IMG/VR virus record: IMGVR_UViG_3300033148_002931
Span: 1 to 64,000 of that record
DNA: 64,000 bases
Reading direction: 5' to 3' (one strand)
Origin: a virus
Under the pieces are notes generated by a model. That model did no database searches and was not told the origin of the DNA. It worked only from the letters and a program-made list of their open reading frames with translations. This document shows positions 34,079 through 62,836 of this stretch, piece after piece (the first letter of the stretch is position 1; every line of letters starts with the position of its first letter). The position numbers and the translations under genes were made by a program.

Positions 34079-34825
34079 TTATTCTCCTCTCTTTACTACA
34101 CCTCTATATTCATAATTATGAAAATTAATTGTTACAACCATTGTCTTGGGAAATTCTTCTGGAGGAGGGGGAACAGGAGGAGGCTCAGTTGTTTTTAGTA
34201 TTCTATTCATATCTATTCCCTGTGATCCAAAACCATAAAGATACCCTTTAGTCTTTAATACAGTATATTGCCATATATCCCAATTTATCCAATCTCTTGG
34301 TAGATATGGTTGATTAGCAGTAGTCCAATTTGCTACCCAAAGAGGTAATTGAGACCAATAACTAGAAGGTAATACATTATGATTCCACCAACCCTGTGAG
34401 GTATAAATACCAGGATATAAACCAGAAGTAATATGTTTTTTTACATATTCACAAGCGGTTCTCAATACACTGCTAATGTAATCTGGTTGCATTCCATCAC
34501 TATGTTCACAATCTAGGAATACTACACCAGGAAGCGTTTTAATGTTAGGTGTAGGTTTATCTTCCATCTGTGCCTGAAACCATTCCATTTGTTCATTTAT
34601 ATCATGTCCAGGTTTAAAAAAGTGATAAGCAGAAATGCCATAGGGATAATTGGCTTCGCTGGCTCTCGTGTAGAAGTCATTAAATTTGCTATCATGGTTT
34701 TGATATTTTCCATAAGTAGCTCTCATAATCAGAAAATCAATGTCAGCTTTCTTATTCTTTTCTGGATTATAAATTCTTTGATGATAACTAATATCATTTC
34801 CTAAAATATATATTTGGTTGTTCAT
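34079..34825 (-). CDS. GH25 lysozyme (endolysin)
   Basis: 248 residues. GNDISYHQ near residue 9 and VVFLDCEHSDG near residue 101 carry the Asp and DxE acidic residues of the GH25 muramidase barrel; GIYTSQGWW near 139, PLWVANWT near 161 and WDIWQYT near 181 are also typical. A Pro-rich linker (PPPVPPPPEE, about 217-226) leads to a short C-terminal segment, possibly a wall-binding remnant. It cleaves peptidoglycan between MurNAc and GlcNAc. It is in the early-strand module, next to a small membrane protein. Confidence 0.88.
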   Translation of the reverse strand: MNNQIYILGNDISYHQRIYNPEKNKKADIDFLIMRATYGKYQNHDSKFNDFYTRASEANYPYGISAYHFFKPGHDINEQMEWFQAQMEDKPTPNIKTLPGVVFLDCEHSDGMQPDYISSVLRTACEYVKKHITSGLYPGIYTSQGWWNHNVLPSSYWSQLPLWVANWTTANQPYLPRDWINWDIWQYTVLKTKGYLYGFGSQGIDMNRILKTTEPPPVPPPPEEFPKTMVVTINFHNYEYRGVVKRGE

Positions 34826-42535: not shown

Positions 42536-42608
42536 AGAAAACAGCAACTCCGGTTAAACCATTATAGGTGTCGGATATAACAATTATTGGTAAATATTGG
42601 AGGTAATT

Positions 42609-43811
42609 ATGTCCGATTTATCGGGTGAAAAAGTATTAAATCTTGGTGCAGACGCGCAAAAAGAGAAATCTTTTATTGCATCTACTGAGGCGGGAGTTGT
42701 AACACGCGCGACTGATCCAGTTATTAGTCCAACTTACAGCACTCCAGGTGACTTTGCCGCTCAATATCCTCAACCATTAGACCCAACTGAAATTTTGGCG
42801 ATGTGTGATGAGATTACTCTTTATCGACACATTCCAGAATTACGAACTGGTTTGAAACAGGATATGTGGCGTGAAATGGATGAGCTAGACTTTACTTCTG
42901 GCTCTACTTATATTGCTTTTGCGGATGGTTATTGCCCAGAAGAATATGAGCACGATGGTGACAATATTACTATTACATTAAAGAATCTTGGTACTAAGAA
43001 ATCTTTAGGCATTTCTGATCTAATGCACTCATCTTCTGTGGCAATGGGTTATGGTGATGCTATCAACGCTCTCAATCCTGGTTTTCCTTCTAGTGAGGGA
43101 TTACCTGGTGGGCTAGATATGGCGGCTTTCCAACGTCAAACAATAGCAGACTTGAAAGAGAAAGAAGTAACCCTCGGAATGGCATTGACGCTGAACGGTT
43201 TAGATGATATGTTAATCAATGGTGATACCAATACTAACTCTTTGGAGTTTGATGGTATAGAATATTGGGCAGCCAATCAATCTTGTACCATGCACACTAA
43301 TAGTAATACCGCATCTGGTACTTTCTCTGCAAGCAGTTTCGATCGTTTCTTAGCAGAAAGTTGTGCTAAGGCACAGGAAGTTTGGGGACATCCTCAGGCT
43401 ATTCAGGAAATGATGGCGGGCTATTTCCAGCTTGGTTATGCCGGTAGCCAGATAGTTAATCATGCGAGTGGTAATCGTCTTACTCCAGGGTTCAACTTTG
43501 GCGGAGAGGTCAATACTGGAGTTGGTGCTCTCAAGGTGGTTGCAGATAACAACTTTGCAAGAGTAGATATTGGAGGTGGGGGCTTCCAGGCATCTCTGTG
43601 GACATTGAGAACTACACATAATGGGCAGCCATTAGTATATCGTAGAACACAGATACCACTGAGTATGAAAGACCTTGTTCCTGGTTGTACTGCAATTAGT
43701 TTTGAGATTTGGACTAAGACAGCCCTTATTATCAAGGCTTGTTGTGCACAAGGACAATATACTTCTCAGTTTACTGGAAGGATAGTCTCGACCTGCGCTA
43801 CAATTGGGTAA
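42609..43811 (+). CDS. Major capsid protein, HK97-fold type
   Basis: 400 residues. Start at 42609 is set by GGAGG 5 bp upstream; the TTG at 42597 overlaps it. Features such as LINGDTNTNSLEFDGIEYW near residue 200 are seen in HK97-fold capsid proteins. The order portal, protease/scaffold, capsid supports the call. It ends just before a 13-bp hairpin. Confidence 0.85.
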   Translation: MSDLSGEKVLNLGADAQKEKSFIASTEAGVVTRATDPVISPTYSTPGDFAAQYPQPLDPTEILAMCDEITLYRHIPELRTGLKQDMWREMDELDFTSGSTYIAFADGYCPEEYEHDGDNITITLKNLGTKKSLGISDLMHSSSVAMGYGDAINALNPGFPSSEGLPGGLDMAAFQRQTIADLKEKEVTLGMALTLNGLDDMLINGDTNTNSLEFDGIEYWAANQSCTMHTNSNTASGTFSASSFDRFLAESCAKAQEVWGHPQAIQEMMAGYFQLGYAGSQIVNHASGNRLTPGFNFGGEVNTGVGALKVVADNNFARVDIGGGGFQASLWTLRTTHNGQPLVYRRTQIPLSMKDLVPGCTAISFEIWTKTALIIKACCAQGQYTSQFTGRIVSTCATIG

Positions 43812-46832: not shown

Positions 46833-47687
46833 ATGAAAATTGCAGTTACAGGTTGGAAGGGAAGATTGGGAAGTCAATTAGTAGACAATGATTGTTATAT
46901 TCTTGATGTAGATATAACTGATAAAGCAGATGTTTATTCTAAAATAAAGTTATTAGCGCCAGATGTTGTAATCAATTGTGCCGCTATTACTGATGTAGAT
47001 GGTTGCGAAAGTGAAGATGGTTATACAAAAGCATTAGACGTAAATTATTTAGCAGTAGAGAATGTGCGTTGCGCTTGTAAGGAATACGATAGCAATTTAA
47101 TTCAAATAAGTACAGATTATATATTTGGTAGTAATAATGGCGCATATTCCGAGAAGAACAGACCATTAGCACAAAGTAATGGTGAACCAGTAAATAATTA
47201 TGGATGGAGCAAATTGGGTGGTGAGGATGTATTATTAACTACAAATATTTATAATAATTTGATAGTACGTACTACTGGTTTATATGGCAATCCGGATAAA
47301 CATGATTTTCTTCAATTAATACAAGAAACTGTGGGGGAAGGGAAAGAACTCAAAGTAACAAAAGAATTAATTGGAAATCAAACATATATTCCTCATTTAG
47401 CAAAGGCATTAATTTATGTTACTAACAATATTGAAATTATACGCAATAATAAAGTTTTGAATATTGCATCCGAAGATATAATTAGTAGATATGAATTTGC
47501 TCTTGCTATTGCCGATATATTTGGATATAATAAAGAATTGATTATTCCGTGTCTCAATAGTGAAATAGTAGAATGGAAAGCTAAGAGACCAAAAAAAGCA
47601 GGGCTAAAGACTTCTCTAGCAAAGAAATTAGGTGTGCCAATTTATACTATTGCAGAAGGGCTAAAAGAGTGTCGGAAAATAATATAG
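46833..47687 (+). CDS. RmlD-like NAD(P)-dependent sugar-nucleotide reductase
   Basis: 284 residues. Nucleotide-binding TGWKGRLG at residue 6, NCAAITDVDGCE near residue 50, STDYIFG near 92 and catalytic YGWSK near 128 (YxxxK). This matches extended SDRs of the dTDP-4-dehydrorhamnose reductase type, which reduce a 4-keto-sugar nucleotide. With the dehydrase gene 1.3 kb downstream, a deoxysugar pathway is suggested, but the NDP and sugar are not known. Confidence 0.82.
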   Translation: MKIAVTGWKGRLGSQLVDNDCYILDVDITDKADVYSKIKLLAPDVVINCAAITDVDGCESEDGYTKALDVNYLAVENVRCACKEYDSNLIQISTDYIFGSNNGAYSEKNRPLAQSNGEPVNNYGWSKLGGEDVLLTTNIYNNLIVRTTGLYGNPDKHDFLQLIQETVGEGKELKVTKELIGNQTYIPHLAKALIYVTNNIEIIRNNKVLNIASEDIISRYEFALAIADIFGYNKELIIPCLNSEIVEWKAKRPKKAGLKTSLAKKLGVPIYTIAEGLKECRKII

Positions 47688-47908
47688 AAACTTATATACA
47701 AGTGAGCGCTTGGGCGATGGATTTTTGGTATGCTTTTTTGGATCGTCCAAAATTTCTTAGGTGGATTGCTAAAATAGCTATGGGTAAATATGCTTATAGA
47801 GAATTATATGAGATAAAAGTTTGTTTTGAAAATGTTGATCTTTTGCCTAATATTGGGTATTCTCTTAAACATATGGATTACCACAAAGATAAGGTGGATT
47901 TAGGATGA
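47669..47908 (+). CDS. 79-residue protein, function unknown
   Basis: GTG start with AGAAGGG upstream, overlapping the reductase gene by 19 bp. Trp/Tyr-rich (SAWAMDFWYAFLDRPKFLRWIAK). Coupled to the next glycosyltransferase. Function unknown. Confidence 0.55.
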   Translation: MSENNIETYIQVSAWAMDFWYAFLDRPKFLRWIAKIAMGKYAYRELYEIKVCFENVDLLPNIGYSLKHMDYHKDKVDLG

Positions 47909-48618
47909 AAGTTAGTATCATAATACCGTTTTATAACTTATGGAATATGACTCATCAGAGATTGATGGAATTATTCAAATATGTTCCTGAACCATTAGAA
48001 ATTGTATTAGTAGACGATTGCTCTACTGATTTGGATTGCAAGTCCGGCATGGCTTGGTGGCAAAAATCTCCTATTCAGCATGATGTAAAGTATGTATGGA
48101 ACAAAGAGAACATTGGATTTGGTGGTTCTAATAATAGAGGGGCAAAGGCGGCTACTGGTGATATATTGATATTCCTCTCAAATGATGTTGTTATCAGTGG
48201 AGACTTTGTTCCTCGGATTGTGCAAATACTTCAAGAAAACAAAGATGTTATAATAGGAGGGCGAATAATTTATTGGGATAGTGGTTGGAACACTTTAGAT
48301 ATATACGGAAACAAAACCATTATCATGTATCCTGAAGGATGGTTAATTGCTTGTACTAAAGAAATGTGGAATAGAATTGGTGGTTTCGACAGGATATATG
48401 GCAAATTTGATGCAGAGGATATAGATATTGGCGCTTGGGCTGTTTATAATGATATTCCATTAATTGATTTAGAATCTCCATATTTGAATCATATATCTGG
48501 GCAAACTATTTATAAGATTTATCCTGATAGAATGGATTATACTAAACGAAACATTATAGCCTTGAAGCAAAAGTGGACATCATTGTTAGAGGAGAAATTT
48601 GTCGATGACACTAAATGA
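47905..48618 (+). CDS. GT2 family glycosyltransferase
   Basis: 237 residues. VSIIIPFYN at the N-terminus, LVDDCSTD near residue 35, NIGFGGSNNRGAK near 71 and FLSNDVV near 90: the GT-A fold with its metal-binding region. ATGA coupling to the previous gene. The FDAEDID motif near residue 170 fits the family's catalytic ED. Confidence 0.85.
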   Translation: MKVSIIIPFYNLWNMTHQRLMELFKYVPEPLEIVLVDDCSTDLDCKSGMAWWQKSPIQHDVKYVWNKENIGFGGSNNRGAKAATGDILIFLSNDVVISGDFVPRIVQILQENKDVIIGGRIIYWDSGWNTLDIYGNKTIIMYPEGWLIACTKEMWNRIGGFDRIYGKFDAEDIDIGAWAVYNDIPLIDLESPYLNHISGQTIYKIYPDRMDYTKRNIIALKQKWTSLLEEKFVDDTK

Positions 48619-48956: not shown

Positions 48957-50240
48957 ATGAATAAAAAAGATGAAATATTAGAATTAGTAAATAAATATTG
49001 GTTGCCAAAGCAAGATAAATTATTTATACCAGGTGTATCTCCAATACCAGCCTCTTTCCCTACAATAAATAGTGAAGATATTGCATCTGTAATAGATATT
49101 ACACTTGATGGTTGGTTTACTGAATTCAAAGCATGTGCCCAATTTGGCAAGGCATTAGAAAAATACACGGGCAAGAAACATGCTGTTTTAGTCAATTCTG
49201 GTAGTTCTGCTAGTCTGGTAGCAATGTCTACGATGTTAGAGGGTAGGAGAGAGAAGTTTGTACTAACAACTGCGTTAGCATTTCCAACAACAGTAGCACC
49301 CATTTATCAAAATAACAAAATTCCTATCTATATTGATGTGGATATAGAAACTCTTTCTCCTAATTGGGAACAGGCTAGAGATATGCTAGACGAACATGGA
49401 GATGATATAGCTGGATCAATCTTTACTCATACACTTGGATTTCCTTATGATGAGCAGAGGTTTAGTGTTGCATTAAAAGAGAAAGATAAATTTTTAATAA
49501 GCGATTCGTGTGACTCTCTTGGGGCTAAGGTGGGAATAAATGGAGAGCATGCTGGAAGTTTTAGTGATGCAATGACATTATCATTCTTCCCCGCCCATCA
49601 GGTGACTTGTGGTGAGGGTGGCGCTATTTTATTTGATGATGATGAGTTATATAAGAAGGCAAGAAGTTATGTTAATTGGGGACGCTCATGTTATTGCTTA
49701 CCCGGACAAAGTAATGCTTGCGGAAAGAGATTTACATGGGAAAACAGAGGAACATTACCTGAGGGCTATGACCATAAATATATCTTTGATAGACTTGGGT
49801 ATAATCTGAAAATGACAGAATGGCAAGCTGCATTAGGTTTATCTCAGATAAATAAAATAGATGAATTTGTAGACATAAGACAATCAAATTATATTGATTT
49901 GAAGTTTAGAATTTGGCAACATATTTTTTTGCCCTCAATTAAATTATCTCATACATCCCCATTTGGTGTACCAATTATGGTACACAAAGATGCCCCATTT
50001 TCCGCTAACGAAATGATAAAGTTCTTAGAGTCAAAGAAAATCTATACAAGAAGGTTCTTTGCTGGTAATATTACAAGACAACCCGGATATATGAACTTGC
50101 CTTATATTTATAAAGATTTAACCAATACAGATTATATAATGAATAGTGGGTTCTGGATAGGTTGTCATCCAGGAATAACAAGACAGATGCTGGATTATAT
50201 GATAGAGATGATAAATGAATTTGTTGAAAAGTATGAATAA
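48957..50240 (+). CDS. CDP-4-dehydro-6-deoxyglucose-3-dehydrase (E1)-like enzyme
   Basis: 427 residues of the DegT/DnrJ/EryC1 fold. The PLP lysine is replaced by His214 (SFFPAHQVTCGEGG), the hallmark of E1/RfbH/DdhC, which removes the 3-hydroxyl in making 3,6-dideoxyhexoses. A C-x-C-x7-C cluster (RSCYCLPGQSNACGKRF, about 240-256) plus an upstream Cys matches the [2Fe-2S] site. LPEGYDHKYIFDRLGYNLKMT follows as in RfbH. No E3 reductase or CDP-glucose genes are in the window, so host partners would be needed. Confidence 0.82.
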   Translation: MNKKDEILELVNKYWLPKQDKLFIPGVSPIPASFPTINSEDIASVIDITLDGWFTEFKACAQFGKALEKYTGKKHAVLVNSGSSASLVAMSTMLEGRREKFVLTTALAFPTTVAPIYQNNKIPIYIDVDIETLSPNWEQARDMLDEHGDDIAGSIFTHTLGFPYDEQRFSVALKEKDKFLISDSCDSLGAKVGINGEHAGSFSDAMTLSFFPAHQVTCGEGGAILFDDDELYKKARSYVNWGRSCYCLPGQSNACGKRFTWENRGTLPEGYDHKYIFDRLGYNLKMTEWQAALGLSQINKIDEFVDIRQSNYIDLKFRIWQHIFLPSIKLSHTSPFGVPIMVHKDAPFSANEMIKFLESKKIYTRRFFAGNITRQPGYMNLPYIYKDLTNTDYIMNSGFWIGCHPGITRQMLDYMIEMINEFVEKYE

Positions 50241-50368
50241 TGTATTCAGTAATTGATACCATAATGTTTGTGATTATTCCTTATATGATTTTTATAGCAA
50301 TACTAATTCTTCCTCTAGCAATGATTTGGAAGATTATAAATATGATTTTTAGAAAGGAGAAAATGTGA
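50240..50368 (+). CDS. 42-residue membrane miniprotein
   Basis: Its ATG overlaps the previous stop by one base (TAATG) and its end overlaps the next GTG start. One hydrophobic helix (about 5-32) with a basic C-terminus (IINMIFRKEKM). The next gene's AAAGGAG lies within its last codons. Function unknown. Confidence 0.5.
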   Translation: MYSVIDTIMFVIIPYMIFIAILILPLAMIWKIINMIFRKEKM

Positions 50369-51288
50369 GAGTAGTTCTTAGCGGAATATTTTATCCATTT
50401 GCAATGCTTTCCTTTTTCTGGAGAGCATTAGAACGCAGAGAAGATGTAGAATTATGTACTGTGGGGCCATTCACAGGAACGTGGATACCTTGGAATCATT
50501 CTATGGATTTATCTCCAAAATATGTTAGAACACCAACAGTACCATTACCAAAAGAGGCAATACAACAACAGTTACCAGCAAAGTTTGTAGAAAACTTATT
50601 GCCAGGGAAATTCAAGAGCCCTGACTTATGGCTTCAGGTAGATGCCGGATGGCATGTAACTACTAAACCAGAAGCAACAGTAGTAGCATTAGTCAAAACC
50701 GATCCGCATGCTATTCCGAAGAAATATTATGATATTCCCGCAAGCTATTCTGATAGAGTATTTACAATGCAGACGCCATATCTCATTCCTGGCGAATTCT
50801 ACTTGCCTTATGCTTATGATCCAGAGATACATTATCCAATGAAAGAAGTAAAAAAGAAATATGATGTTTGCATGGTTGGATTATTATATCCAGAAAGAAA
50901 AAGAATACTAGATATGGCAAAGGCAAGAGGATTAAGTACATATTACAGCATAGGTGAAGTTTATGATGAGTATAGACTTCGCTATAATGAAAGCAGATGT
51001 GCAATAAATTGGTCTAGTGCTAAGGACTTGCCTACACGAGTGTTTGAATATGCAGCAATGGGTATTCCTATGGTAACAAATAGAGTACCCGACCTTAATA
51101 CATTCTTTGTAGAAAAAGATCACTTCCTCGGTGCAGATACAATAGAAGAGGCGATGGAACAAATAATGTTTATTATAGAGAACCCTGAAGAAGCTAATAA
51201 GATGGCTTATGCTGCACAAAGAAAAGTAAAAGCTCATACTTGGAAACATAGAATAAATCAAGTATTAGAAATATGTAAGTTAGTATAA
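50365..51288 (+). CDS. CgeB/GT4-like glycosyltransferase
   Basis: 307 residues, GTG start with AAAGGAG 6 bp upstream. C-terminal RVFEYAAMGIPMVTNRVPDLNTFF (about 222-245) is the nucleotide-sugar-binding EAxAxGxPV-type segment of GT-B enzymes of the CgeB group. N-terminal half is the acceptor-side domain. Substrate unknown. Confidence 0.72.
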   Translation: MRVVLSGIFYPFAMLSFFWRALERREDVELCTVGPFTGTWIPWNHSMDLSPKYVRTPTVPLPKEAIQQQLPAKFVENLLPGKFKSPDLWLQVDAGWHVTTKPEATVVALVKTDPHAIPKKYYDIPASYSDRVFTMQTPYLIPGEFYLPYAYDPEIHYPMKEVKKKYDVCMVGLLYPERKRILDMAKARGLSTYYSIGEVYDEYRLRYNESRCAINWSSAKDLPTRVFEYAAMGIPMVTNRVPDLNTFFVEKDHFLGADTIEEAMEQIMFIIENPEEANKMAYAAQRKVKAHTWKHRINQVLEICKLV

Positions 51289-52204: not shown

Positions 52205-52861
52205 ATGAAAATATATTTGATGGCGCAGGGTAAAGGTAGTAGATGGGAATGGAATAAGGGAAGAAAGTCTGCTAAGTATAAACAATTAGTCAAAGTTGGT
52301 GATGAACCATTGATTGTTAGAACTCTAAGACAATTACAAGATAGAGGAGAGACTAATACTTTAGTTATTGCTGATGGAGATTTCTTTCCAAAAGTAAAAG
52401 AATATGCTATGCTCCAAACTAATCCTGAGCCAGTAGGTACAATCAATGAAGGAATATTGTCTTTGTATCGAGGTTGGACGGAGGAGAAACAGTCTGTTTT
52501 TTTATTGGGTGATGTGGTATTTAGCAACCAAGCATTAGATACTATATTGCAAAGTAATCGTAGCTTTGCAATATTTGGTAGGAAAGGAAGAAATAAATAT
52601 ACAAGTAAAGTAGCCAGTGAAATATTTGCAGTTTCTGTTAGAGGTTCTAAAGTAAAGTGGCTTAAAGAATTATTAATGATACTCAAACGAAAGGAAGCAC
52701 CTAAGTTATGGGATATGTATGATGTAGTTAAATATCAACAGCCAAACCCAATGATAAAAATTGATGATTATACAGATGATGTAGACAGTCCAGGAGAATA
52801 CCAGGAGTGGTTCAAAACATTAGAAAAATTAGCCCTAGAGGATGATGCAAATTGGCAGTAA
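52205..52861 (+). CDS. Sugar nucleotidyltransferase (MobA/GalU-like fold)
   Basis: 218 residues. N-terminal MAQGKGSRW...KYKQLVKVGDEPLIVRTL gives the GxGxR nucleotide-binding loop and the Lys used by NTP transferases; FLLGDVVF near residue 99 and TDDVDSPGEY near 196 supply metal-binding acidics. The enzyme would activate a sugar-1-phosphate, or a related substrate, as NDP-sugar for the nearby glycosyltransferases. Contains an AAACAG-T-CTGTTT word at 52487. Confidence 0.75.
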   Translation: MKIYLMAQGKGSRWEWNKGRKSAKYKQLVKVGDEPLIVRTLRQLQDRGETNTLVIADGDFFPKVKEYAMLQTNPEPVGTINEGILSLYRGWTEEKQSVFLLGDVVFSNQALDTILQSNRSFAIFGRKGRNKYTSKVASEIFAVSVRGSKVKWLKELLMILKRKEAPKLWDMYDVVKYQQPNPMIKIDDYTDDVDSPGEYQEWFKTLEKLALEDDANWQ

Positions 52862-53694
52862 TAGATTGTTTTAGTTTTTTCAATGAACTTGAATTATTGA
52901 GAATACGTTTACATGAGTTATCTGATGTAGTAGATAAATTTGTATTAGTAGAGGCTACCAAGACACATTCGGGGTTAGATAAAGTATTACATTACGAAAT
53001 ACATAAAGAGGAATTTGTAGAATTTCAAGATAAGATTGTTCATGTTATTGTAGAAGATATGCCAATGACTAAAAAAGAGATAGAAAACGCTATTACACCA
53101 CAGGATAGACATTGGCTAGATACTGGTTATCAGCTAGGTGATAATTGGGTAAGAGAGCGATTTCAAAGAAACGCAATAATGAGGGCATTACAAGATACTA
53201 ATCCTAGAGATATTATTATTATCGAGGATGCGGATGAGATGGTTAGACCAGAGATAATATCTAATCTTGATGCTACAATGGTGGCTGGTTCTAATGCAGT
53301 GGGACAGACACTGCACTCTTATTATCTCAATTGGGAATGTGTAAATATGCCTTGGTGGGGAAGTAAAATATTGCATAGGGAATTTGTAACTAATCCTAGT
53401 GAGCATAGATTTCATACAGTTGCCTCTCAGTATATTCATAATGGTGGTTGGCATCTCAGCTATCTGGGTGGCATAAGTGCTATTCAAGATAAGATAAAAG
53501 CTTTTGCGCATCAAGAGTTCAATATTCCTGAAGTGTTCGATGTGATGGAACAAAAGCTTGCACAACAGAAGGATGGGATTGGTAGATTGTATGAATATGA
53601 GGTAGTGCCAATAGATGATAGTTACCCAAAGTATATACAAAATAACTTAAGAGAGTTTGAACATTGGATGTATAATGAACACTACAAGATTTAA
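52852..53694 (+). CDS. GT17 family glycosyltransferase
   Basis: 280 residues, TTG start (MAVIDCFSFFNELELLRIRL is the family's conserved N-terminus). FVLVEATKTHSG near residue 30, IIEDADEMVRPE near residue 123 and LNWECVNMPWWG near 161 fit GT17, known for beta-1,4-GlcNAc transfer to mannose in eukaryotes and also present in phages and bacteria. Overlaps the nucleotidyltransferase by 10 bp. Confidence 0.8.
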   Translation: MAVIDCFSFFNELELLRIRLHELSDVVDKFVLVEATKTHSGLDKVLHYEIHKEEFVEFQDKIVHVIVEDMPMTKKEIENAITPQDRHWLDTGYQLGDNWVRERFQRNAIMRALQDTNPRDIIIIEDADEMVRPEIISNLDATMVAGSNAVGQTLHSYYLNWECVNMPWWGSKILHREFVTNPSEHRFHTVASQYIHNGGWHLSYLGGISAIQDKIKAFAHQEFNIPEVFDVMEQKLAQQKDGIGRLYEYEVVPIDDSYPKYIQNNLREFEHWMYNEHYKI

Positions 53695-54376
53695 TCCTAC
53701 CCCGAATGGTGCATTACACTTAGGGCATGTTTATAATATACTTTTCAATGAACAATTTGCTCATAATAACGGCGGAAAATTTTATGTGCGGTTTGAGGAC
53801 ACTTGTCAAGCTCTTATTACAGAGAATATACCTCCAGAACATATAAAACCAATTATGCAATTACAAAGAAATGATATAGAATGGTTGGGAATAGATGTTG
53901 ATGTTTGGGATACTCAAGCTATCTGGAAGGATGAGGCAGATAAAAAGATAAGCCAATATATAAAACTTGATAAGTTACGTATACCTTATCCTCACAATAT
54001 GCCGGTATCTATTGGGACAGTAGATGAATTTTATCCATATACACCTTACCATACTGCGTTTCGAGTGGTTCTGGATAATATGATTGGTATCACTCATGTT
54101 ATTCGTGGTAATGAGTTTTTGACTGAGTATTCTTTATATTACTTTTTCTGCGATTTATTTGGTTATGATGTACCACATTTTCTTTATATACCGCGGTTAG
54201 TTAGTAGTTCTGGTGATATTTCTAAGTCTCATGGTGGTTACTCTATTGCAGAATTACGCGCTTCGGGGTATAATCCAAAAGAAATAAGGAAACTACTAAG
54301 AGAATCTTGTTTGAAGTGGCCCAATAATGGTTGGACATTCCAAAATCTTAAGGTAAACCCACGGGTTAATTTATGA
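53675..54376 (+). CDS. Stand-alone GluRS-like catalytic core (GluQ-RS/YadB-like)
   Basis: 233 residues from ATG 53675. TRFNPTPNGALHLGH at the N-terminus carries the HIGH-type signature of class I GluRS, RFEDT near residue 38 matches the RIEDTD segment, GITHVIRGNEFLTE near 144 is also GluRS-typical, and SGDISKSHGG near 182 is the KMSKS loop. The anticodon-binding domain and, partly, the stem-contact fold are missing, as in GluQ-RS, but it is shorter than that enzyme (about 300). It may attach glutamate to something other than a canonical tRNA. It overlaps GT17 and is ATGA-coupled to the ABC permease. Confidence 0.82.
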   Translation: MNTTRFNPTPNGALHLGHVYNILFNEQFAHNNGGKFYVRFEDTCQALITENIPPEHIKPIMQLQRNDIEWLGIDVDVWDTQAIWKDEADKKISQYIKLDKLRIPYPHNMPVSIGTVDEFYPYTPYHTAFRVVLDNMIGITHVIRGNEFLTEYSLYYFFCDLFGYDVPHFLYIPRLVSSSGDISKSHGGYSIAELRASGYNPKEIRKLLRESCLKWPNNGWTFQNLKVNPRVNL

Positions 54377-55287
54377 GACGAGTATTAGGATTAATAATTA
54401 TAAACATAATTTTTATTGTAATTCTTAGTATTGCTACACCTCATTTCTTTAGTAAAAGTAACCTGATAGTATTAGTAGACAACATGGCATTAGAGGCTAT
54501 TGTTTTGTCTGGATATACATTATTATTAGTAGGTGGAAACTTCGATCTTTCTGTTGATGGTATTGTGGCATTAAGTGGAGTTTCTGCTGGGCTTATGATG
54601 AACTCTGGTATACATTGGATAATCGCTGTTATAGCTTCTTTATTGCTGGCAGGGATAATTGGGGCAATCAATGGAGTAATAGTAACTAAGATTGGTATTA
54701 ATGGATTAATTGCTACATTAACAACATGGTGGATATGTCTTGGGATTACATTTGGAATGACTAAAGCACTTGCACCTTATGGTTTTCCTGAAGTATTTCA
54801 GTGGTTCGGACAGGTGAGAGTTCTTGGTTTCCGCTCTATTATTTTTTATGCTATCGTGATTACTATAATTTTATCTATTGTCTTACATTTCACAAAGCTA
54901 GGATCACATCTTTATCTTAGTGGTGATAATAAGCAAGCATCAGAAATGATGGGAATAGATACTGCGAGATTAGGAATAATGACATATGTATTAGTAGGTC
55001 TATTGGCGGGATTTGTTGGAATTATGCTAACATCTAAACTAAATGCTGCTAGTCCTATGGCAGTAGATGGAATGGCATTGCGAGTTATCGCGGCGTCTGT
55101 GTTAGGAGGTGCAAATTTAAGTGGTGGTAAAGGTTCGATTGTAAGTGGATTATTAGGTTTATGTTTGATGGGCATTCTTAGTAATGCCATTATTCAATTA
55201 GGTATATCCCCCTATTTTCAAAAAGCTATATTGGGTGGGGTATTATTAGTAGCAGTTTTAACAGAAAAAATAAGGAGAACAGAATGA
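54373..55287 (+). CDS. RbsC-type sugar ABC transporter permease
   Basis: 304 residues with about eight to ten hydrophobic segments. SGDNKQASEMMGI near residue 197 is the cytoplasmic EAA-like coupling loop, and VLGGANLSGGKGSIVSGLLG near 240 is the conserved motif of the ribose/xylose/galactose permease family. ATGA overlaps at both ends tie it to the GluRS-like and binding-protein genes. It forms the membrane pore of a pentose/hexose importer. Confidence 0.9.
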   Translation: MRRVLGLIIINIIFIVILSIATPHFFSKSNLIVLVDNMALEAIVLSGYTLLLVGGNFDLSVDGIVALSGVSAGLMMNSGIHWIIAVIASLLLAGIIGAINGVIVTKIGINGLIATLTTWWICLGITFGMTKALAPYGFPEVFQWFGQVRVLGFRSIIFYAIVITIILSIVLHFTKLGSHLYLSGDNKQASEMMGIDTARLGIMTYVLVGLLAGFVGIMLTSKLNAASPMAVDGMALRVIAASVLGGANLSGGKGSIVSGLLGLCLMGILSNAIIQLGISPYFQKAILGGVLLVAVLTEKIRRTE

Positions 55288-56231
55288 AATTACGATTATT
55301 AGTTTATATTTTGTTAGTTGTTTTATTAGCGGGATGTGTTGGAGCTAATCAGCCAGAAGTAGTAGGTGTAGAAGAAAGTAGAACTGGAACTTATTACTTT
55401 CTAGCAGCGAATAATGCTGATCCATTCTATATTCCTGGCGTAGCCGGATTTACTGATGCAGCCGATGCGGTCGGAATGAAGTCGGAATTTGTTGGGCCAA
55501 TGGAAGCAAGCACCAGTGAACAGATGAAAACATTTGAAGAGTTATTGGCTAATCCGAAAACGAAAGGTATTTTCTGGTATCCAATGGATACTAATGTTGG
55601 CGAGCCTTTAGTAAAAGAGGCAATTGCCAAAAATATACCATTTGTAATTGGTGCTGCCGACAGTGCGTTTAAGACTCGTAATGCTTTTATTGGTTATGAT
55701 AATACAGTTTTGGGAAACCAGGCTGCCGAGTGGGCAGCTAAGTTAATTGATTGCAAAGGTTCTGTTGGTACAATTGCTACCATTGGTGATAGTTTGACTG
55801 AACGTACAGAAGCATTTAATGCGCATATTGCAGAACTTTGCCCTGATGTAGAAGTACGTGAACGAGCATCGCATGATGGTAGTGCGGTTACAGCTAGTGC
55901 AACGATTGATGCTTATGTTGTTGCATATCCAGACTTGACGTTACTATGGTTTGCTGATGGAACATCAAGTCAAATGGTGCAGAACTGGAAAGATAAACAG
56001 GCACAAGGTATCAAGACACTATTCTTAGCAATGGATATGCCTCCTTCTACACTGGAAGCAGTAAGGGATGGTGTGTATGTCGGAAGCGTGGGGCAGGATA
56101 CTTATACAGAAGCCTTCTGGGGTGTAATGTTACTTGACGCGTTGAGTAAAGGTCAACGTGTTCCTGATACATTGTATTTATCGGTTATTATGGTTGATAA
56201 AAATAATGTAGATCAGTATATTGAGAAATGA
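55284..56231 (+). CDS. RbsB-type sugar-binding lipoprotein
   Basis: 315 residues. Signal peptide with lipobox LLAGC at about residues 15-19 gives a membrane-anchored binding protein. YYFLAANNADPFYIPGVAGF near residue 36, IFWYPMD near 96 and FIGYDN near 135 are typical of the periplasmic-binding protein 4 family (ribose/galactose-like). ATGA coupling on both sides. The sugar is unknown. Confidence 0.88.
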   Translation: MKLRLLVYILLVVLLAGCVGANQPEVVGVEESRTGTYYFLAANNADPFYIPGVAGFTDAADAVGMKSEFVGPMEASTSEQMKTFEELLANPKTKGIFWYPMDTNVGEPLVKEAIAKNIPFVIGAADSAFKTRNAFIGYDNTVLGNQAAEWAAKLIDCKGSVGTIATIGDSLTERTEAFNAHIAELCPDVEVRERASHDGSAVTASATIDAYVVAYPDLTLLWFADGTSSQMVQNWKDKQAQGIKTLFLAMDMPPSTLEAVRDGVYVGSVGQDTYTEAFWGVMLLDALSKGQRVPDTLYLSVIMVDKNNVDQYIEK

Positions 56232-56974
56232 CCCTTCTTGAAATGAGGAATATCTCCAAGTCTTTTGGGGATATTCATTCTCTTATTGATATAAACCTTG
56301 CTATACATCCAGGAGAAGTAGTCGGCTTACTTGGAGATAATGGTGCTGGCAAGTCTACTCTTATAAAGATAATGACAGGTTATTATCAACCTAATAATGG
56401 TGGTGAGATATACTGGAAGGGTGAGAAAGTAAAACTGACTGTTTCTAAAGGTAGAGATTTGGGAATAGAAACAGTTTATCAGGAACGCGCGTTGGCGGAG
56501 CAACAAGCTATTTGGCGTAATATTTTCATGGGGAGAGAGATAACTAGAAATGGGTTTATGAAAATAAAGGAAATGCAAGAAAAAGCTAATGACTTGATGG
56601 ATAGTATGGGATATAGTGGTTCTTCTATTACATCAACAAAGTTAGTAAACACTATGTCTGGAGGAGAAAGGCAAGGTATAGCTATTACTAGGGCATTATA
56701 CTTTCAGGCGGAACTGATAATCCTGGATGAACCAACCATGGGATTATCTATTGCGGAGACACGAAAAGTCTTGGAGTTTGTGAAGAATATAAAAGATGCA
56801 GGAAAATCTTGTGTATTCATTGACCACAACATTTTCCATGTTTATCCAGTTGCTGATAGAATAGTTGTATTAGATCGTGGGGTGGTAGCGGGTGAATATT
56901 ATAAGGATGATTTGACGTTAGATGAACTAACGGATAAATTGTATCATGTAGCACGTACAGGAACAATGTTATGA
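56228..56974 (+). CDS. Single-domain RbsA-type sugar ABC ATPase
   Basis: 248 residues. Walker A GDNGAGKST near residue 36, signature TMSGGERQG near residue 142, Walker B LIILDEPTMGLS near residue 163, switch His in FIDHN near 197. RbsA proteins usually fuse two such domains (about 500 residues); this has one, as in FrcA-type systems, so it would act as a homodimer. ATGA overlaps bind it to the binding protein and the glycosidase gene. Confidence 0.9.
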   Translation: MTLLEMRNISKSFGDIHSLIDINLAIHPGEVVGLLGDNGAGKSTLIKIMTGYYQPNNGGEIYWKGEKVKLTVSKGRDLGIETVYQERALAEQQAIWRNIFMGREITRNGFMKIKEMQEKANDLMDSMGYSGSSITSTKLVNTMSGGERQGIAITRALYFQAELIILDEPTMGLSIAETRKVLEFVKNIKDAGKSCVFIDHNIFHVYPVADRIVVLDRGVVAGEYYKDDLTLDELTDKLYHVARTGTML

Positions 56975-58005
56975 ATTTTATGGTAGATGATGAATTTTTA
57001 TTATTAATGAGCATTAATCCTGATTTAGATGTTCCTGGATATAATACCCAAATTCTTACTATAGACGAACGCAAAAAATTGCGGGATGTGGGGATACAAA
57101 CAGTATTAGAATATCTAAATTGGGAACAGATAAACCCCTCATTAAATCAATATAATTTTGAAGAGATTAGTAATATATTATATAGAAATCGAGAAGCTAA
57201 CATGAAAATTATTTGTCCAATAACGAATTGGAATTTTCCTGCCTGGATGCCAGACGAATGGTTTGCCAAACACCAAAGTGGAGAAATTGATCGCAGTGTA
57301 CTTTCTATATGGCATGAAGATGCACAAAGTGTTGCTGATGAATATTATCAGAACTTAATAAATTATTTTGGGGCTAATGATGTATTATTTATTTGGGGCG
57401 ATTGGCAAGGCGGAGAGGGAATTTATCCCGCCGGGTCTTGTTTTTATGATGACGCCGCGTTAAATGATTATAAACAAGTTTATGGCACTTCTGCTTATCC
57501 TGATATTAATACCCAAGAAACATTAGATTGGTATGGCAAGAAAATTATAGAGCATTCTCTTAAAAAACAACAAATATTTTACCCTCAATGTAATGAGATT
57601 TGGAATATGCAACAATTTTTGATGGACACTTGGACAAAGGGATTTGGAAACTTTGTTATACCAGAAACATTCCAGGCATTTCGTAATAAATATCCTGATG
57701 ATTCAATAGTATTCTTGCAATATACTTATTTTGATGATGCACATTATAAGATACCTAATGAGGAGTTTGTAGATAATATCAAAAATACATATAATAGTGA
57801 AGTAATTGTAGAAGCACATTTTGCCCAAGGATTAAGAGAAACAACACCAAAAGCTATTGCCAAAGGATTTCGTGGGCAAATTTGTAGTTTATTACATGCA
57901 CAAGCAGGCTATTTTGCGTTTGAAGATTGGATGTTGGAAGAAGTAAAAAAATCTAATGACTTGTGGAGAGAGGCAAGAATAAATGAAAATAATAACAATA
58001 GCTAG
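56971..58005 (+). CDS. Clan GH-A glycoside hydrolase (GH42-like)
   Basis: 344 residues, ATGA-coupled to the ABC ATPase. VGIQTVLEYLNWEQINPSLNQYNF near residue 35 is the early strand pattern of GH-A barrels, and LFIWGDWQGGEGIYP near residue 135 and VIVEAHFAQG near 278 are candidate Glu-bearing strands. No signal peptide, so the substrate is probably cytoplasmic, such as an imported oligosaccharide. Family assignment is tentative. Confidence 0.65.
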   Translation: MNFMVDDEFLLLMSINPDLDVPGYNTQILTIDERKKLRDVGIQTVLEYLNWEQINPSLNQYNFEEISNILYRNREANMKIICPITNWNFPAWMPDEWFAKHQSGEIDRSVLSIWHEDAQSVADEYYQNLINYFGANDVLFIWGDWQGGEGIYPAGSCFYDDAALNDYKQVYGTSAYPDINTQETLDWYGKKIIEHSLKKQQIFYPQCNEIWNMQQFLMDTWTKGFGNFVIPETFQAFRNKYPDDSIVFLQYTYFDDAHYKIPNEEFVDNIKNTYNSEVIVEAHFAQGLRETTPKAIAKGFRGQICSLLHAQAGYFAFEDWMLEEVKKSNDLWREARINENNNNS

Positions 58006-58726
58006 AACACTCAATGAGGAGCGGAATATAGAGAGGTTTTGTAATTCATATCAAAATATTTCTGACATGATTTTGGTGGCTGATGGTGGTAGTACCGATA
58101 ACACGATAGAGATTGCAAAATCTTTTCCAAACGTACAGGTAAGAGAATATACAGAGAAAATAGAATTAGAGAATGGGTTATGGCGTAATCCTGATTGGAA
58201 ACACATAAACTTTCTAATTGAATGGGCAGAAAATGAAGGCGCGGATTGGATAATGTTAGATGATTGTGACACTACTCCTAATTATTTACTTCAACAAGAT
58301 GGTAGAAATGCGTTACTAGAAACTGACCTATCATTTGTAATGACTGTAAGTCTTTTCTTATGGGGTGAAGATATGCACTTCCCAAGGTTATCTCGTGCAG
58401 GTATACATGCTGTTGGGCATATGGATTGGTATGCGGGGATATGGGCGTGGAGAACTAATCAAGAAATACGAGTGTATGGTGACCCACCACACTTTATGTT
58501 TGAGCGTAAGAGTAAACCTGGAATAATGGTAAATTTTGATACTGAAGATGGGTTGAAATTAATGCCTCCATATTGCAGATTACATAGAAATAGTCCTACG
58601 CCTGAAATAGCACAGGAGCGTCAGGATTATTACAAACAAAGTGGATTGATACCTGAGATGCTACACCCAATGGCTATTGGTGGAGCATTGGAGAAATTAC
58701 CAGAGTGGGCGAGGGATAATGAATAG
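57983..58726 (+). CDS. GT2-like glycosyltransferase
   Basis: 247 residues overlapping the glycosidase by 23 bp. IITIARTLNEERNIERF at the N-terminus and LVADGGSTDNTIEIAKSF near residue 30, then WIMLDDCDTTPN near 91 (DxD-like). A GT-A enzyme; substrate unknown. Confidence 0.8.
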   Translation: MKIITIARTLNEERNIERFCNSYQNISDMILVADGGSTDNTIEIAKSFPNVQVREYTEKIELENGLWRNPDWKHINFLIEWAENEGADWIMLDDCDTTPNYLLQQDGRNALLETDLSFVMTVSLFLWGEDMHFPRLSRAGIHAVGHMDWYAGIWAWRTNQEIRVYGDPPHFMFERKSKPGIMVNFDTEDGLKLMPPYCRLHRNSPTPEIAQERQDYYKQSGLIPEMLHPMAIGGALEKLPEWARDNE

Positions 58727-58931
58727 AAATGCTTGTATTTATAGATTAGATCATAACAATAATATGCGATTTGTTTGTAGTGGTAAGACAATAGAAAAGG
58801 CGGAAGAATTTCTAATGGCAAATTACAATCCTTCAGGTAAATCAGTAAATATAAATTGGACTGAAATACAGAGTACAGACTGGCGTGGTGGTGCAGGTAT
58901 GTGGCATGGAGTAATAAAAAATGAAAATTGA
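58719..58931 (+). CDS. 70-residue protein, function unknown
   Basis: ATG at 58719 overlaps the previous stop by 8 bp. Small alpha/beta sequence ending WRGGAGMWHGVIKNEN. Overlaps the next gene. Function unknown. Confidence 0.55.
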   Translation: MNRNACIYRLDHNNNMRFVCSGKTIEKAEEFLMANYNPSGKSVNINWTEIQSTDWRGGAGMWHGVIKNEN

Positions 58932-59946
58932 AATTCTTTGCAGCGATGGAAGCCCATTAGGTGTAACGAGTAAAACAATTTGGGGTGATAGTTTTCGTGT
59001 TGGGGTTGGTGGTGCTGAATATGCCTTACTGACTATGTGTGAGACATGGACTGAGGCAGGGCATGAAGTAATTCTTTATAATAATCCACATGAGCAGAAT
59101 GCTTCATCTTTCGAGCAACGTGCAATTTCTACATTTGATCCTAAAGCAAATAGAGATGTATTGATAGTATTTCGTTCGCCTAACCCTGCTGTACTTACCG
59201 CAAAGGGGTTGAAGGTATGGTGGAGTTGTGATCAAAGTAGTAGGGGTAATTTCAAAGAGTTTAGACCAATGGTAGATAAGGTGGTTTGTATCTCTGAATT
59301 TCATAAGAATTATTTCAAAACTACTTATAATATAAAAGATAGTATTGTAATAGATTTACCTGTTAGAGTGAATGATTATTTACAGCATGAAAGTTGGGGC
59401 ATGGAGAAAACGCCTAATTCATTTTTATTTTCTTCTGTTCCAGCGCGCGGATTGAAAGAATTATTGGATATTTGGGGCAGAATAAAGAAATATAATCCTG
59501 ATGCAATACTTACTATTACAAGTGATTATCGCTTATGGGGTGCATTACCATCAAACGATCACTTTAGAACTATGGTATTAGGTAAAAAAGACATACAATT
59601 TTTAGGAGCAGTTCCTAGAAATGAATTAATAGAAATAGAATTAAAATCAGAATGGTATGTATATCCATGCACTTATGATGAACTATTTTGTATAAGTTGT
59701 TCTGAGGCACAGCTTGCCGGAATCTATCCTATAACAAGTAATTTTGGAGCTTTACCAACAACCAATATGGGTACTGTTCTTGTTCATGATCCTGCTTCTA
59801 TTGAATTTGGGGTAGGAACTGTAGAAGAATTAGAAAGGCTGGAAGGTAATAAAATGAACCAGCAACTTTCAATAAGAACATTAGCATTAAATCGTTTCCA
59901 TCCTAACGATATAATGGAACAATGGGAGAATAAAGTATTCAAATGA
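58921..59946 (+). CDS. GT4-like glycosyltransferase
   Basis: 341 residues. Gly-rich N-terminus (SFRVGVGGAEYALLTMCETW), then GT-B layout with FLGAVPRNELIEIELKSEWYVYP near residue 222 and CISCSEAQLAGIYPITSNFGALP near 256, the donor-binding region. Coupled by ATGA to another GT4. Substrate unknown. Confidence 0.8.
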   Translation: MKIEILCSDGSPLGVTSKTIWGDSFRVGVGGAEYALLTMCETWTEAGHEVILYNNPHEQNASSFEQRAISTFDPKANRDVLIVFRSPNPAVLTAKGLKVWWSCDQSSRGNFKEFRPMVDKVVCISEFHKNYFKTTYNIKDSIVIDLPVRVNDYLQHESWGMEKTPNSFLFSSVPARGLKELLDIWGRIKKYNPDAILTITSDYRLWGALPSNDHFRTMVLGKKDIQFLGAVPRNELIEIELKSEWYVYPCTYDELFCISCSEAQLAGIYPITSNFGALPTTNMGTVLVHDPASIEFGVGTVEELERLEGNKMNQQLSIRTLALNRFHPNDIMEQWENKVFK

Positions 59947-61070
59947 AGATATTATGGTTAAGCGATTTTGACTTTAGAGGTAGTGGTTATTACAATATAA
60001 GCATTTCTCTTTGTAATGGATTAGCACAAAGAGGACACGATGTAAAAGCATTAGGAATGCACTATAAAGGACAGGAACATAATCACAATTTTTCTATTCT
60101 TCCTGTTTCTAATGCACAAGAAATATATGCAATGACAAAGAATTTAGAACAATTATGGAATTTTGATGTATTTGTATGTGCATTAGATATACCTCACCAT
60201 GAAGGCTTTCTACATCAAGAGATTTTTGCCACTAGAAGTTTCCCTTATATAGGAATAACCCCAATTGAAGCAGACCCATTGGTTATAGATTGGGCAATGG
60301 TGCTTATGCAATTCAATAAGTGTTTTATTATCTCGGAGTTTGGTACAAAAGAGGCGCAAAGGTTCAATATACCTGCCGAACACCTACAAATAGGTATAGA
60401 TACAGAAACTTGGCGACTGGCTAGTGATAAAGAGCGTGTATCGGGGCGCGGTGCATTAGGTATAAAAGAAGATGAATATGCGGTGCTTACAGTTGCAGAT
60501 AATCAGGAGCGCAAGAACCTGCATGCTGGTATGGAAATATTTGCAGAATTTGCTAAGGATAAGGAAGCTAAATATATCTTGGTTACAAGAGAATTCAATA
60601 GAGTAGGTGGGAAGTTACGTGCTTACGCTATGGAATTGGGAATTGCAGATAAGTTTATTATATTAGAGCGTGGAATGAGTTTTGCACAACTGTGGTCAGT
60701 TTATGTGGCATGTGATGTATTTTTATTAACCGCGAAGGCGGAGGGGCTTGGGATGATACTATTAGAAGCAATGGCAACAGGATTACCGTGTATTGCCACA
60801 AATTGTACCGGAATATCTGAGTTACTAGCCGATAATCGTGGTGTATTGGTGGATTATGAGTATACACATAGAGACTCGTTTGGTAATGGTCGCAGATACT
60901 GGATAAATAAACAGAAGGCAGTAACATCTTTAGAAAATGTATATCATAATGGATTTGATACATCACTTGGTAGGCAATATGCAATAGATAGAAACTGGAA
61001 TGTGGCTATTGACCAAGTAGATAAAGCTATAAGGGAACTGGAGAAAAACAAGAATGTCAAAAAAATATAG
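59943..61070 (+). CDS. GT4 family glycosyltransferase
   Basis: 375 residues. N-terminal LWLSDFDFRGSGYYNIS, and the C-terminal donor site FLLTAKAEGLGMILLEAMATGLPCIATNCTG (about 260-290) with the EGxG..xxEAMA motif typical of GT4. Overlaps the next gene by 17 bp. Confidence 0.87.
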   Translation: MKILWLSDFDFRGSGYYNISISLCNGLAQRGHDVKALGMHYKGQEHNHNFSILPVSNAQEIYAMTKNLEQLWNFDVFVCALDIPHHEGFLHQEIFATRSFPYIGITPIEADPLVIDWAMVLMQFNKCFIISEFGTKEAQRFNIPAEHLQIGIDTETWRLASDKERVSGRGALGIKEDEYAVLTVADNQERKNLHAGMEIFAEFAKDKEAKYILVTREFNRVGGKLRAYAMELGIADKFIILERGMSFAQLWSVYVACDVFLLTAKAEGLGMILLEAMATGLPCIATNCTGISELLADNRGVLVDYEYTHRDSFGNGRRYWINKQKAVTSLENVYHNGFDTSLGRQYAIDRNWNVAIDQVDKAIRELEKNKNVKKI

Positions 61071-61908
61071 AAAACGTGTTAAGAAATCGCATGTAGCTAC
61101 AATACCACATTCACGCACGTTACTAGATATAATAATTCCTGTTTATAATAGATTTGATTTATTGAAGAAATGCCTGGAGGCTATTCCCAAAGCATTAGGA
61201 GAATTAACATACCAAATAATAATTGTAGATAATGGAAGCGATAGAGAAATAGCAGATAAATTTTACAGTAACTACCCATTTGTAAAAATAATACGAAACA
61301 AGGAAAATCTTGGTTTCCCCAAGGCATGTAATAAGGGATTTAATAGAGGGGTTTCTCCTTTAGTATTCTTTTTAAATGATGATGTAATGTTAGAACCAAG
61401 TAGTATAGTGCAATTAGTAAAGAATATGGATGATCCCAAGGTGGGGGTAGTGGGGATGAAATTAATATTTCCAGAGAATACTGATTTGCCAAGTGATGAG
61501 GTAAATAGACCAAAGGGAACAGTGCAGCATGTAGGTCTTACCACTAACATTAGAGGAGATTTTCCGCACATTTTGTTAGGATGGAATCCAAATAATCCTA
61601 GAGTAAATGCAATTAGAGAAATTACTGCCGTGACTGGGGCTGCCCTTTTGACAAGAAGGAACTTATTCTTGCGCGTCGGTAGGTTTTTTGAAGGTTATGG
61701 AATGGGCACATGGGAAGATATTGACCTTTGCTTTGCAATAAGGGATATGGGATATAGTATAATAGTAGATGTAAATGCAGTAGGTTATCATTATACTGGT
61801 GCTACTGCCGTAACATACAAGGTGCAATATCCGATAATACCCAACAAAATGCTATTTTTGCAACGTTGGGGTCGTAAACTAACATGGGATGAATGGAAGG
61901 TATGGTAA
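61054..61908 (+). CDS. GT2 glycosyltransferase (rhamnosyltransferase-like)
   Basis: 284 residues. A basic N-terminus (KKYRKRVKKS), then LDIIIPVYNRFDLL, IVDNGSDREIA near residue 54, ENLGFPKACNKGF near 82 and FLNDDVML near 107 (DxD), and GTWEDIDLCFAI near 220 (ED). Closest in layout to rhamnosyltransferase-type GT2 enzymes. Last glycan gene of the island. Confidence 0.85.
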   Translation: MSKKYRKRVKKSHVATIPHSRTLLDIIIPVYNRFDLLKKCLEAIPKALGELTYQIIIVDNGSDREIADKFYSNYPFVKIIRNKENLGFPKACNKGFNRGVSPLVFFLNDDVMLEPSSIVQLVKNMDDPKVGVVGMKLIFPENTDLPSDEVNRPKGTVQHVGLTTNIRGDFPHILLGWNPNNPRVNAIREITAVTGAALLTRRNLFLRVGRFFEGYGMGTWEDIDLCFAIRDMGYSIIVDVNAVGYHYTGATAVTYKVQYPIIPNKMLFLQRWGRKLTWDEWKVW

Positions 61909-62155: not shown

Positions 62156-62836
62156 ATGAATGCTTATTATCCATTTACAACTCCATTAATCCTTACAGAT
62201 GATATATTTATTAATTATGGGGGTGGAACAGGTACTACAACTACAGCACAAAGACAGGCTGTTTATGCAATAGCAGAAGAATTTGTAGTCAGAGACATAA
62301 ATACTTTCTTATTGCCATATATAGTAACAGGAACTTATCCTCTTACTTATGATCTATTACCTATTATTCTTGATTATGGATATGTCAATAGTATAGAAGT
62401 TGTTAGGTTTATTGATACTGAAGAAGATATTTATTACACAATTAGTGGAACAGCCAATATTAAAGCAAGTCTACGTGATCCTGCAAGAGGAATACTGGAT
62501 ATACATTGGCTAATGGGTAACTATGCTGGTTGTGGTGCAACTTATCGAATGCCATATCAAGTACAAGTAGTATATAATGCTGGATTAGCTACGGGAACAG
62601 CTAATTCCCCTATATTTGAGCTTGCACTTACAACAATTGCAGACGAGTTCTTGAATGAAATAGAAGGATATGGTAATGAAGCACCCGGTGGCGTTGGAGT
62701 ACAACGGTATTTTAATCAACAATATAATGAAACAAGAGTAAAACTTCTCAGAACTACTTATGGTACATCTGCTAAGATGAACTTTGTGCATAAGTTATTA
62801 AGTAATTGGCGTAAGCCTAGATATATACGATTATGA
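62156..62836 (+). CDS. Head-tail connector protein, gp6-like position
   Basis: 226 residues. The order of this gene, a 125-residue gene and a gp10-like gene matches HK97/SPP1-type connector clusters. Helices around TTAQRQAVYAIAEEFVVRDI near residue 24 and the beta segment PYQVQVVYNAG fit adaptor proteins. Coupled by ATGA to the next gene. Confidence 0.65.
   Translation: MNAYYPFTTPLILTDDIFINYGGGTGTTTTAQRQAVYAIAEEFVVRDINTFLLPYIVTGTYPLTYDLLPIILDYGYVNSIEVVRFIDTEEDIYYTISGTANIKASLRDPARGILDIHWLMGNYAGCGATYRMPYQVQVVYNAGLATGTANSPIFELALTTIADEFLNEIEGYGNEAPGGVGVQRYFNQQYNETRVKLLRTTYGTSAKMNFVHKLLSNWRKPRYIRL

Follow-up and report, generated by a model that had tools for sequence, protein, structure and literature searches.

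A dehydrase gene in a glycosyltransferase cassette

The window (the whole 64,000-nucleotide stretch of viral DNA that we analyzed) carries, at 48957-50240 on the plus strand, an intact open reading frame of 427 amino acids, with an ATG start preceded by the ribosome-binding-like site AGGA (CTTAGGAAAATAATG); the sequence-only reading that preceded this work had placed the gene at exactly these limits. What that reading had overlooked is the context: the gene lies in a cassette of glycosyltransferase genes bordered on the left by the major capsid gene (Table 1). The capsid assignment is taken from PHROGs, where all 12 of 12 capsid homologues match the major head protein family phrog_212 (best E value, 6.4e-6; the window copy itself, 0.01); the AlphaFold model of this protein is poor (pLDDT 36). 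The right border gene has no match in Pfam or PHROGs. The SDR gene upstream of the dehydrase scores 162 bits against NCBIfam rmlD, short of the cut-off of 224. The MobA/nucleotidyltransferase-like protein was considered for the dehydrase pathway and set aside, as a homologue is present in a cassette that has no dehydrase gene.

Table 1. Features of the capsid-adjacent cassette, with the codons of the putative active site of the dehydrase
Feature	Position	Strand	Basis
Major capsid protein, left cassette border	42597..43811	+	PHROGs phrog_212
RmlD-like extended SDR, proposed partner 4-ketoreductase	46833..47687	+	Pfam RmlD_sub_bind 1.6e-49; YxxxK motif intact as YGWSK
GT2 glycosyltransferase, cassette core	47905..48618	+	Pfam; kept in 7 phages
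E1/RfbH-type [2Fe-2S] sugar-nucleotide 3-dehydrase (predicted)	48957..50240	+	NCBIfam RfbH, PDB 3bcx, signature, trees, fold match
Cys185 codon, first presumed Fe-S ligand	49509..49511	+	alignment with E1, relatives
His214 codon, PLP-lysine position	49596..49598	+	alignment with E1, relatives
Cys245-x-Cys247-x7-Cys255 codons, presumed Fe-S ligands	49689..49721	+	alignment with E1, relatives
Glycosyltransferase cluster c3, cassette core	50365..51288	+	Pfam Glyco_trans_1_2; kept in 7 phages
MobA/nucleotidyltransferase-like protein, not E1-linked	52205..52861	+	Pfam 3.3e-5, below cut-off; cluster c18
GT2-like glycosyltransferase, cluster c9	57983..58726	+	
GT1-group glycosyltransferase, cluster c5, cassette core	58921..59946	+	
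GT1-group glycosyltransferase, cluster c6, cassette core	59943..61070	+	
GT2 glycosyltransferase, cassette core	61054..61908	+	
Right cassette border, putative head-tail connector (by position)	62156..62836	+	syntenic in relatives

The cassette of the window also contains genes of other kinds. At 54373-56974 it encodes all components of a sugar-type ABC importer (permease, lipoprotein substrate-binding protein, and ATPase), which the cassettes of the six related phages lack; in phage collections, the permease is matched mostly by records that are short or lack annotation, or by bacterial genomes deposited among the phages. Directly 3' of the importer lies a GH42-like glycoside hydrolase (56971-58005; Pfam, 21.5 bits against a cut-off of 21). 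A 239-amino-acid product of 53657-54376 resembles the catalytic domain of GluRS/GluQRS; it contains HLGH and a KMSKS-like SKS motif but is too short for the usual tRNA-binding domain.

Family, active-site signature, and phylogeny of the window protein

The protein matches the Pfam family DegT/DnrJ/EryC1/StrS, and among NCBIfam equivalogs RfbH is by far the best (8.8e-124, 413.5 bits), followed by PseC (138.5 bits); the RfbH score is about 10 bits short of the curated cut-off of 423 (NF011936), which two E1 relatives from the same phage lineage exceed with 537 and 561. A sequence search of the PDB is led by the E1 dehydrase 3bcx (2.6e-92) and its H220K mutant (4.6e-91), with ColD next (7.8e-32). 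Likewise, the AlphaFold model (pLDDT 85.5, mostly low in the Fe-S loop 242-282) finds E1 3bcx as its top PDB match in Foldseek (E value, 1.6e-44; TM, 0.85). E1, AscC, DdhC, and RfbH of Yersinia and Salmonella thus share with the window protein the fold, the histidine in place of lysine, and four cysteines, and Salmonella RfbH is about 40% identical to it over a full-length alignment.

The sequence-only reading had proposed that His214 replaces the PLP lysine and that a C-x-C-x7-C cluster is kept. Both are borne out: His214, in the context SFFPAHQVTCGEGG, aligns with His220 of E1, and the cysteine trio C245, C247, and C255 lines up with [2Fe-2S] cysteines of E1 (PDB 3bcx/3bb8), as does C185, a fourth ligand position that had been missed. 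The spacing is C185-x59-C-x-C-x7-C, the first gap having a two-residue insertion. The residues C/H/C/C/C occupy these five columns in 164 of 165 other full E1-type relatives (84 viral, 80 cellular), a unanimity that arises partly by selection because the retrieval patterns contained the motif; the remaining relative is viral and has alanine at position 185. The outgroups, selected otherwise, comprise 12 ColD-like relatives that have the histidine but not the cysteine trio and 5 that have lysine. The match of the window protein to the E1 signature is far beyond chance. It sets the protein apart from the DegT aminotransferases, with their catalytic lysine, and from ColD (GDP-4-keto-6-deoxymannose 3-dehydratase), which belongs to the same superfamily and also has histidine for lysine but lacks the Fe-S cysteines.

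Alanine at the first cysteine position was seen in two E1 homologues, at L207:6150-7472 (minus strand) and L015:9944-11161; the L207 protein has a cysteine one residue earlier, and therefore the ligand may have shifted.

Phylogeny agrees with the signature. The window protein falls in the clade of E1 enzymes with histidine and four cysteines (SH-aLRT 96), apart from ColD-like proteins (99), whose phage members form a separate clade, and from lysine-bearing enzymes (100). In a first tree, with long outgroup branches kept, ColD-like rows lay inside the E1 set, whereas in a second tree, from which the longest rows had been removed, they were cleanly apart from it. Two of the checks that the sequence-only reading had proposed favor its assignment: the histidine and cysteine columns correspond to E1 in an alignment with E1 and ColD-like relatives, and the grouping with lysine-bearing aminotransferases that it had named as contrary evidence did not occur. 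By sequence, motif, tree, and fold, the product of 48957-50240 is an E1-type Fe-S 3-dehydrase, as had been supposed, with predicted binding of the cluster and of PMP and predicted deoxygenation at C3.

The enzyme class is already known, also in phages, and the window protein is a further family member. The earlier suggestion that phages rarely carry this branch is contradicted by at least 596 confirmed viral contigs with an E1-type enzyme, retrieved from IMG/VR with an alignment query; when a single protein served as the query, IMG/VR and GTDB contigs yielded no close relative. Full-length homologues in INPHARED come from Synechococcus phages (that of S-H68 is annotated as a 3-dehydratase), a single-cell marine virus, and a 642-kb phage, and surveys of viral auxiliary genes list rfbH/ddhC/ascC (PMC10653327, PMC11295528). 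The cyanophage homologues (S-H68, RB11-B, S-B43, and others) have the histidine and four cysteines and lie in a glycosyltransferase/nucleotide-sugar cluster with an RmlB-like dehydratase and a cytidylyltransferase nearby, but they are only 33-34% identical to the window protein and belong to another part of the tree. A Salmonella "phage" record (OR851175) was rejected as phage evidence; it is an unverified 2.6-kb contig that we take for host rfbH.

A conserved cassette and a co-occurring reductase

Record IMGVR_UViG_3300025154_000073 is syntenic with the window phage (TerL 47% and capsid 56% identical) and has an E1 gene at the same place. The capsid query found 15 loci in IMG/VR and no match in INPHARED, and seven capsid-sharing records, the window included, carry E1. 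Downstream of the capsid gene, all seven have the RmlD-like SDR, GT2, GT c3, E1, GT c5, GT c6, and GT2, with E1 before GT c3 in the window and after it in the other six, and the next conserved gene of the virion region closes the cassette wherever the retrieved stretch reaches that far. The GC content of the cassette region ranges from 35 to 59% across these phages. This capsid-adjacent glycan cassette is conserved in the lineage, and we found no earlier description of it.

The E1 proteins of the lineage fall into one group (SH-aLRT 98%) that takes in two further viral rows, and an AU test does not reject a single clade (p 0.71); together with the shared locus, this points to old residence and inheritance. 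That the gene was recently acquired from a host, or is an assembly error, and has no role in the phage is very improbable: the family is common in bacteria, but the gene has the GC content of the genome (0.347 for both), the genome is complete with a terminal repeat (see below), seven phages keep a clustering E1 at the same locus, and in the cellular set examined no relative exceeds about 45% identity.

In two further phages, G463 and G465, the capsid and the glycosyltransferases are the same but E1 is missing, and neither record has an RmlD_sub_bind match anywhere. The association of E1 with the RmlD-like reductase (7/0 versus 0/2) has a Fisher p of 0.028, for a small sample of fragment records that are not phylogenetically independent. 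This co-occurrence, seven phages with both genes against two with neither, is the main evidence that the SDR is the partner of E1; it could nevertheless serve a different sugar. The sequence-only reading had held that a partner reductase is lacking, which stands as far as E3 is concerned but misses this linked gene. Three of the seven phages carry RfbF-like and RfbG-like genes shortly upstream of E1. Both matches are below curated cut-offs; the nucleotidyltransferase is best matched by glucose-1-phosphate cytidylyltransferase (192-222 bits, against 62-95 for the next family), and the 4,6-dehydratase-like SDR is ambiguous between CDP and dTDP.

Missing pathway genes and a proposed route to a 3,6-dideoxyhexose

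The full record has 70,737 bp and an exact 114-bp direct repeat at both ends. This marks a complete genome, and the lack of E3, RfbF, and RfbG is therefore real: searches of the whole record found no CDP-glucose 4,6-dehydratase (RfbG), no glucose-1-phosphate cytidylyltransferase (RfbF), and no FAD_binding_6 or Fer2 domain. The absence of E3 and of CDP-glucose genes noted earlier for the window hence extends to the genome, and the earlier thought that they might lie outside the window does not hold. From the full CDP-3,6-dideoxyhexose set (RfbF, RfbG, E1, E3, and a terminal reductase), the phage has only E1 and the RmlD-like SDR. Compared with the known E1/RfbH systems, the window enzyme thus differs in being phage encoded, in lacking these companions, and in its unusual residues at nine conserved sites. 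Next to cellular E1 genes we counted RfbF in 59 of 81 cases, RfbG in 62, and E3 in at least 5, crude figures because the references were picked by motif.

The lack of E3, which the earlier reading had noted, is normal for viruses: none of 50 E1-bearing viral records, the window genome included, has the FAD_binding_6 domain. Nor is it an obstacle, since SpnQ, an Fe-S 3-dehydrase, works with generic ferredoxin or flavodoxin reductases in place of a dedicated E3 (PMC8987622), and the viral records are consistent with an electron supply of this type. SpnQ, which we liken to the window protein by its enzyme class, acts in a dTDP-sugar antibiotic (spinosyn) pathway and shares the histidine and four cysteines (PMC8987622), so the claim that the motif is specific to 3,6-dideoxyhexoses was overstated. 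A plant-type ferredoxin occurs in four of the 50 viral records; in two of these, the cyanophages S-H68 and RB11-B (loci L003 and L004), a ferredoxin in the same genome as E1 might feed it.

We consider it probable that the E1-type dehydrase and the RmlD-like reductase form an inherited 3,6-dideoxyhexose module that decorates a phage-specified glycan and is fed by the host with CDP-4-keto-6-deoxyglucose and electrons, neither CDP-glucose synthesis genes nor E3 being present in the genome. The substrate would be a nucleotide-4-keto-6-deoxyhexose, most likely CDP-4-keto-6-deoxyglucose, CDP being inferred from the cytidylyltransferase-like gene of the relatives. Because the window E1 departs from its relatives at nine near-invariant columns, it may have shifted to a different substrate. 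On a mechanism that is in part general knowledge of the family, PMP would form an imine with the 4-keto sugar, His214 as catalytic acid/base would remove a proton from the cofactor, and the C3 hydroxyl would leave; a [2Fe-2S] relay would then pass electrons to reduce the glucoseen intermediate, and the RmlD-like SDR would reduce the 4-keto group to yield an activated 3,6-dideoxyhexose. The dependence on PMP and Fe-S is that described for E1 and SpnQ, and the electrons may come, as for SpnQ, from host ferredoxin or flavodoxin reductases (PMC8987622). Finally, the glycosyltransferases of the cassette would add the sugar to a glycan that, judging from the location of the cassette beside the capsid gene, may be carried by the virion or the host surface.

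The same class of enzyme might instead act on a dTDP-linked 4-keto-6-deoxy substrate from the dTDP-glucose pathway of the host, the RmlD-like reductase acting on the dTDP product. Sugars linked to dTDP are common in hosts, RmlD-type reductases are classically dTDP linked, and a strong RmlB-like dTDP-glucose dehydratase is present in roughly half of 52 viral records with E1, which leaves room for this nucleotide; SpnQ sets a precedent (PMC8987622). We nonetheless regard it as unlikely, as the nucleotidyltransferase of three relatives is clearly nearest to glucose-1-phosphate cytidylyltransferase and the closest match in both sequence and fold is the CDP-specific E1. More doubtful still is a diverged homologue with another activity, such as SpnQ-like 4-transamination without a reductase, or a relic that is losing function. 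Across 70 near-invariant columns the window protein shows 9 deviations, more than all but one of 165 relatives, and its tree branch is long; the genome has no FAD_binding_6/Fer2 reductase gene, and SpnQ transaminates when its reductase is absent. E1 itself, however, did not do so under such conditions (PMC8987622), none of the deviations touches His214 or the four cysteines, the gene is full length with its ribosome-binding-like site and is kept in seven related phages, and the fold is confident outside the cluster loop.

The probable CDP route can be extended, with a little less than even confidence, to this uncultured phage lineage as a whole, which would inherit the capsid-adjacent cassette with E1 and the RmlD-like reductase as a detachable 3,6-dideoxyhexose module; some members would keep the CDP-glucose genes and others leave them to the host, and phage E1 enzymes would generally do without E3 and rely on ferredoxins of the host or, occasionally, of the phage. 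3,6-Dideoxyhexoses are familiar chiefly from Salmonella and Yersinia O-antigens. Phages that made these sugars could change glycans of the virion or host surface on which adsorption and superinfection depend. As E1 and the reductase are together present or absent on a constant glycosyltransferase backbone, the genes that would add the 3-deoxy sugar are directly testable, and with E3 generally lacking, the electron source becomes a concrete question.

As for the host, the capsid query found no match in 201 genomes of one phylum (a search without a positive control), the best matches of the ABC permease (34-38%) are spread across another phylum, and the phage has no tRNA genes. A GH25 muramidase, probably the endolysin, is encoded at 34079-34825 on the minus strand, and this enzyme and the lipoprotein binding protein together hint that the host may be monoderm.

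Some viral E1 loci have further enzymes next to them. An acetolactate-synthase-like thiamine-diphosphate enzyme lies within 5 kb of E1 in 30 of 83 viral loci and is directly adjacent in ten (examples of loci with such neighbors are L075:11263-12945, L016, L017, L019, L035, L042, and L058), and at other loci there are split proteins of transketolase-like or PDH-like type. Possibly, these phages make branched 3,6-dideoxysugars like yersiniose with a YerE-like enzyme (PMC4753412).
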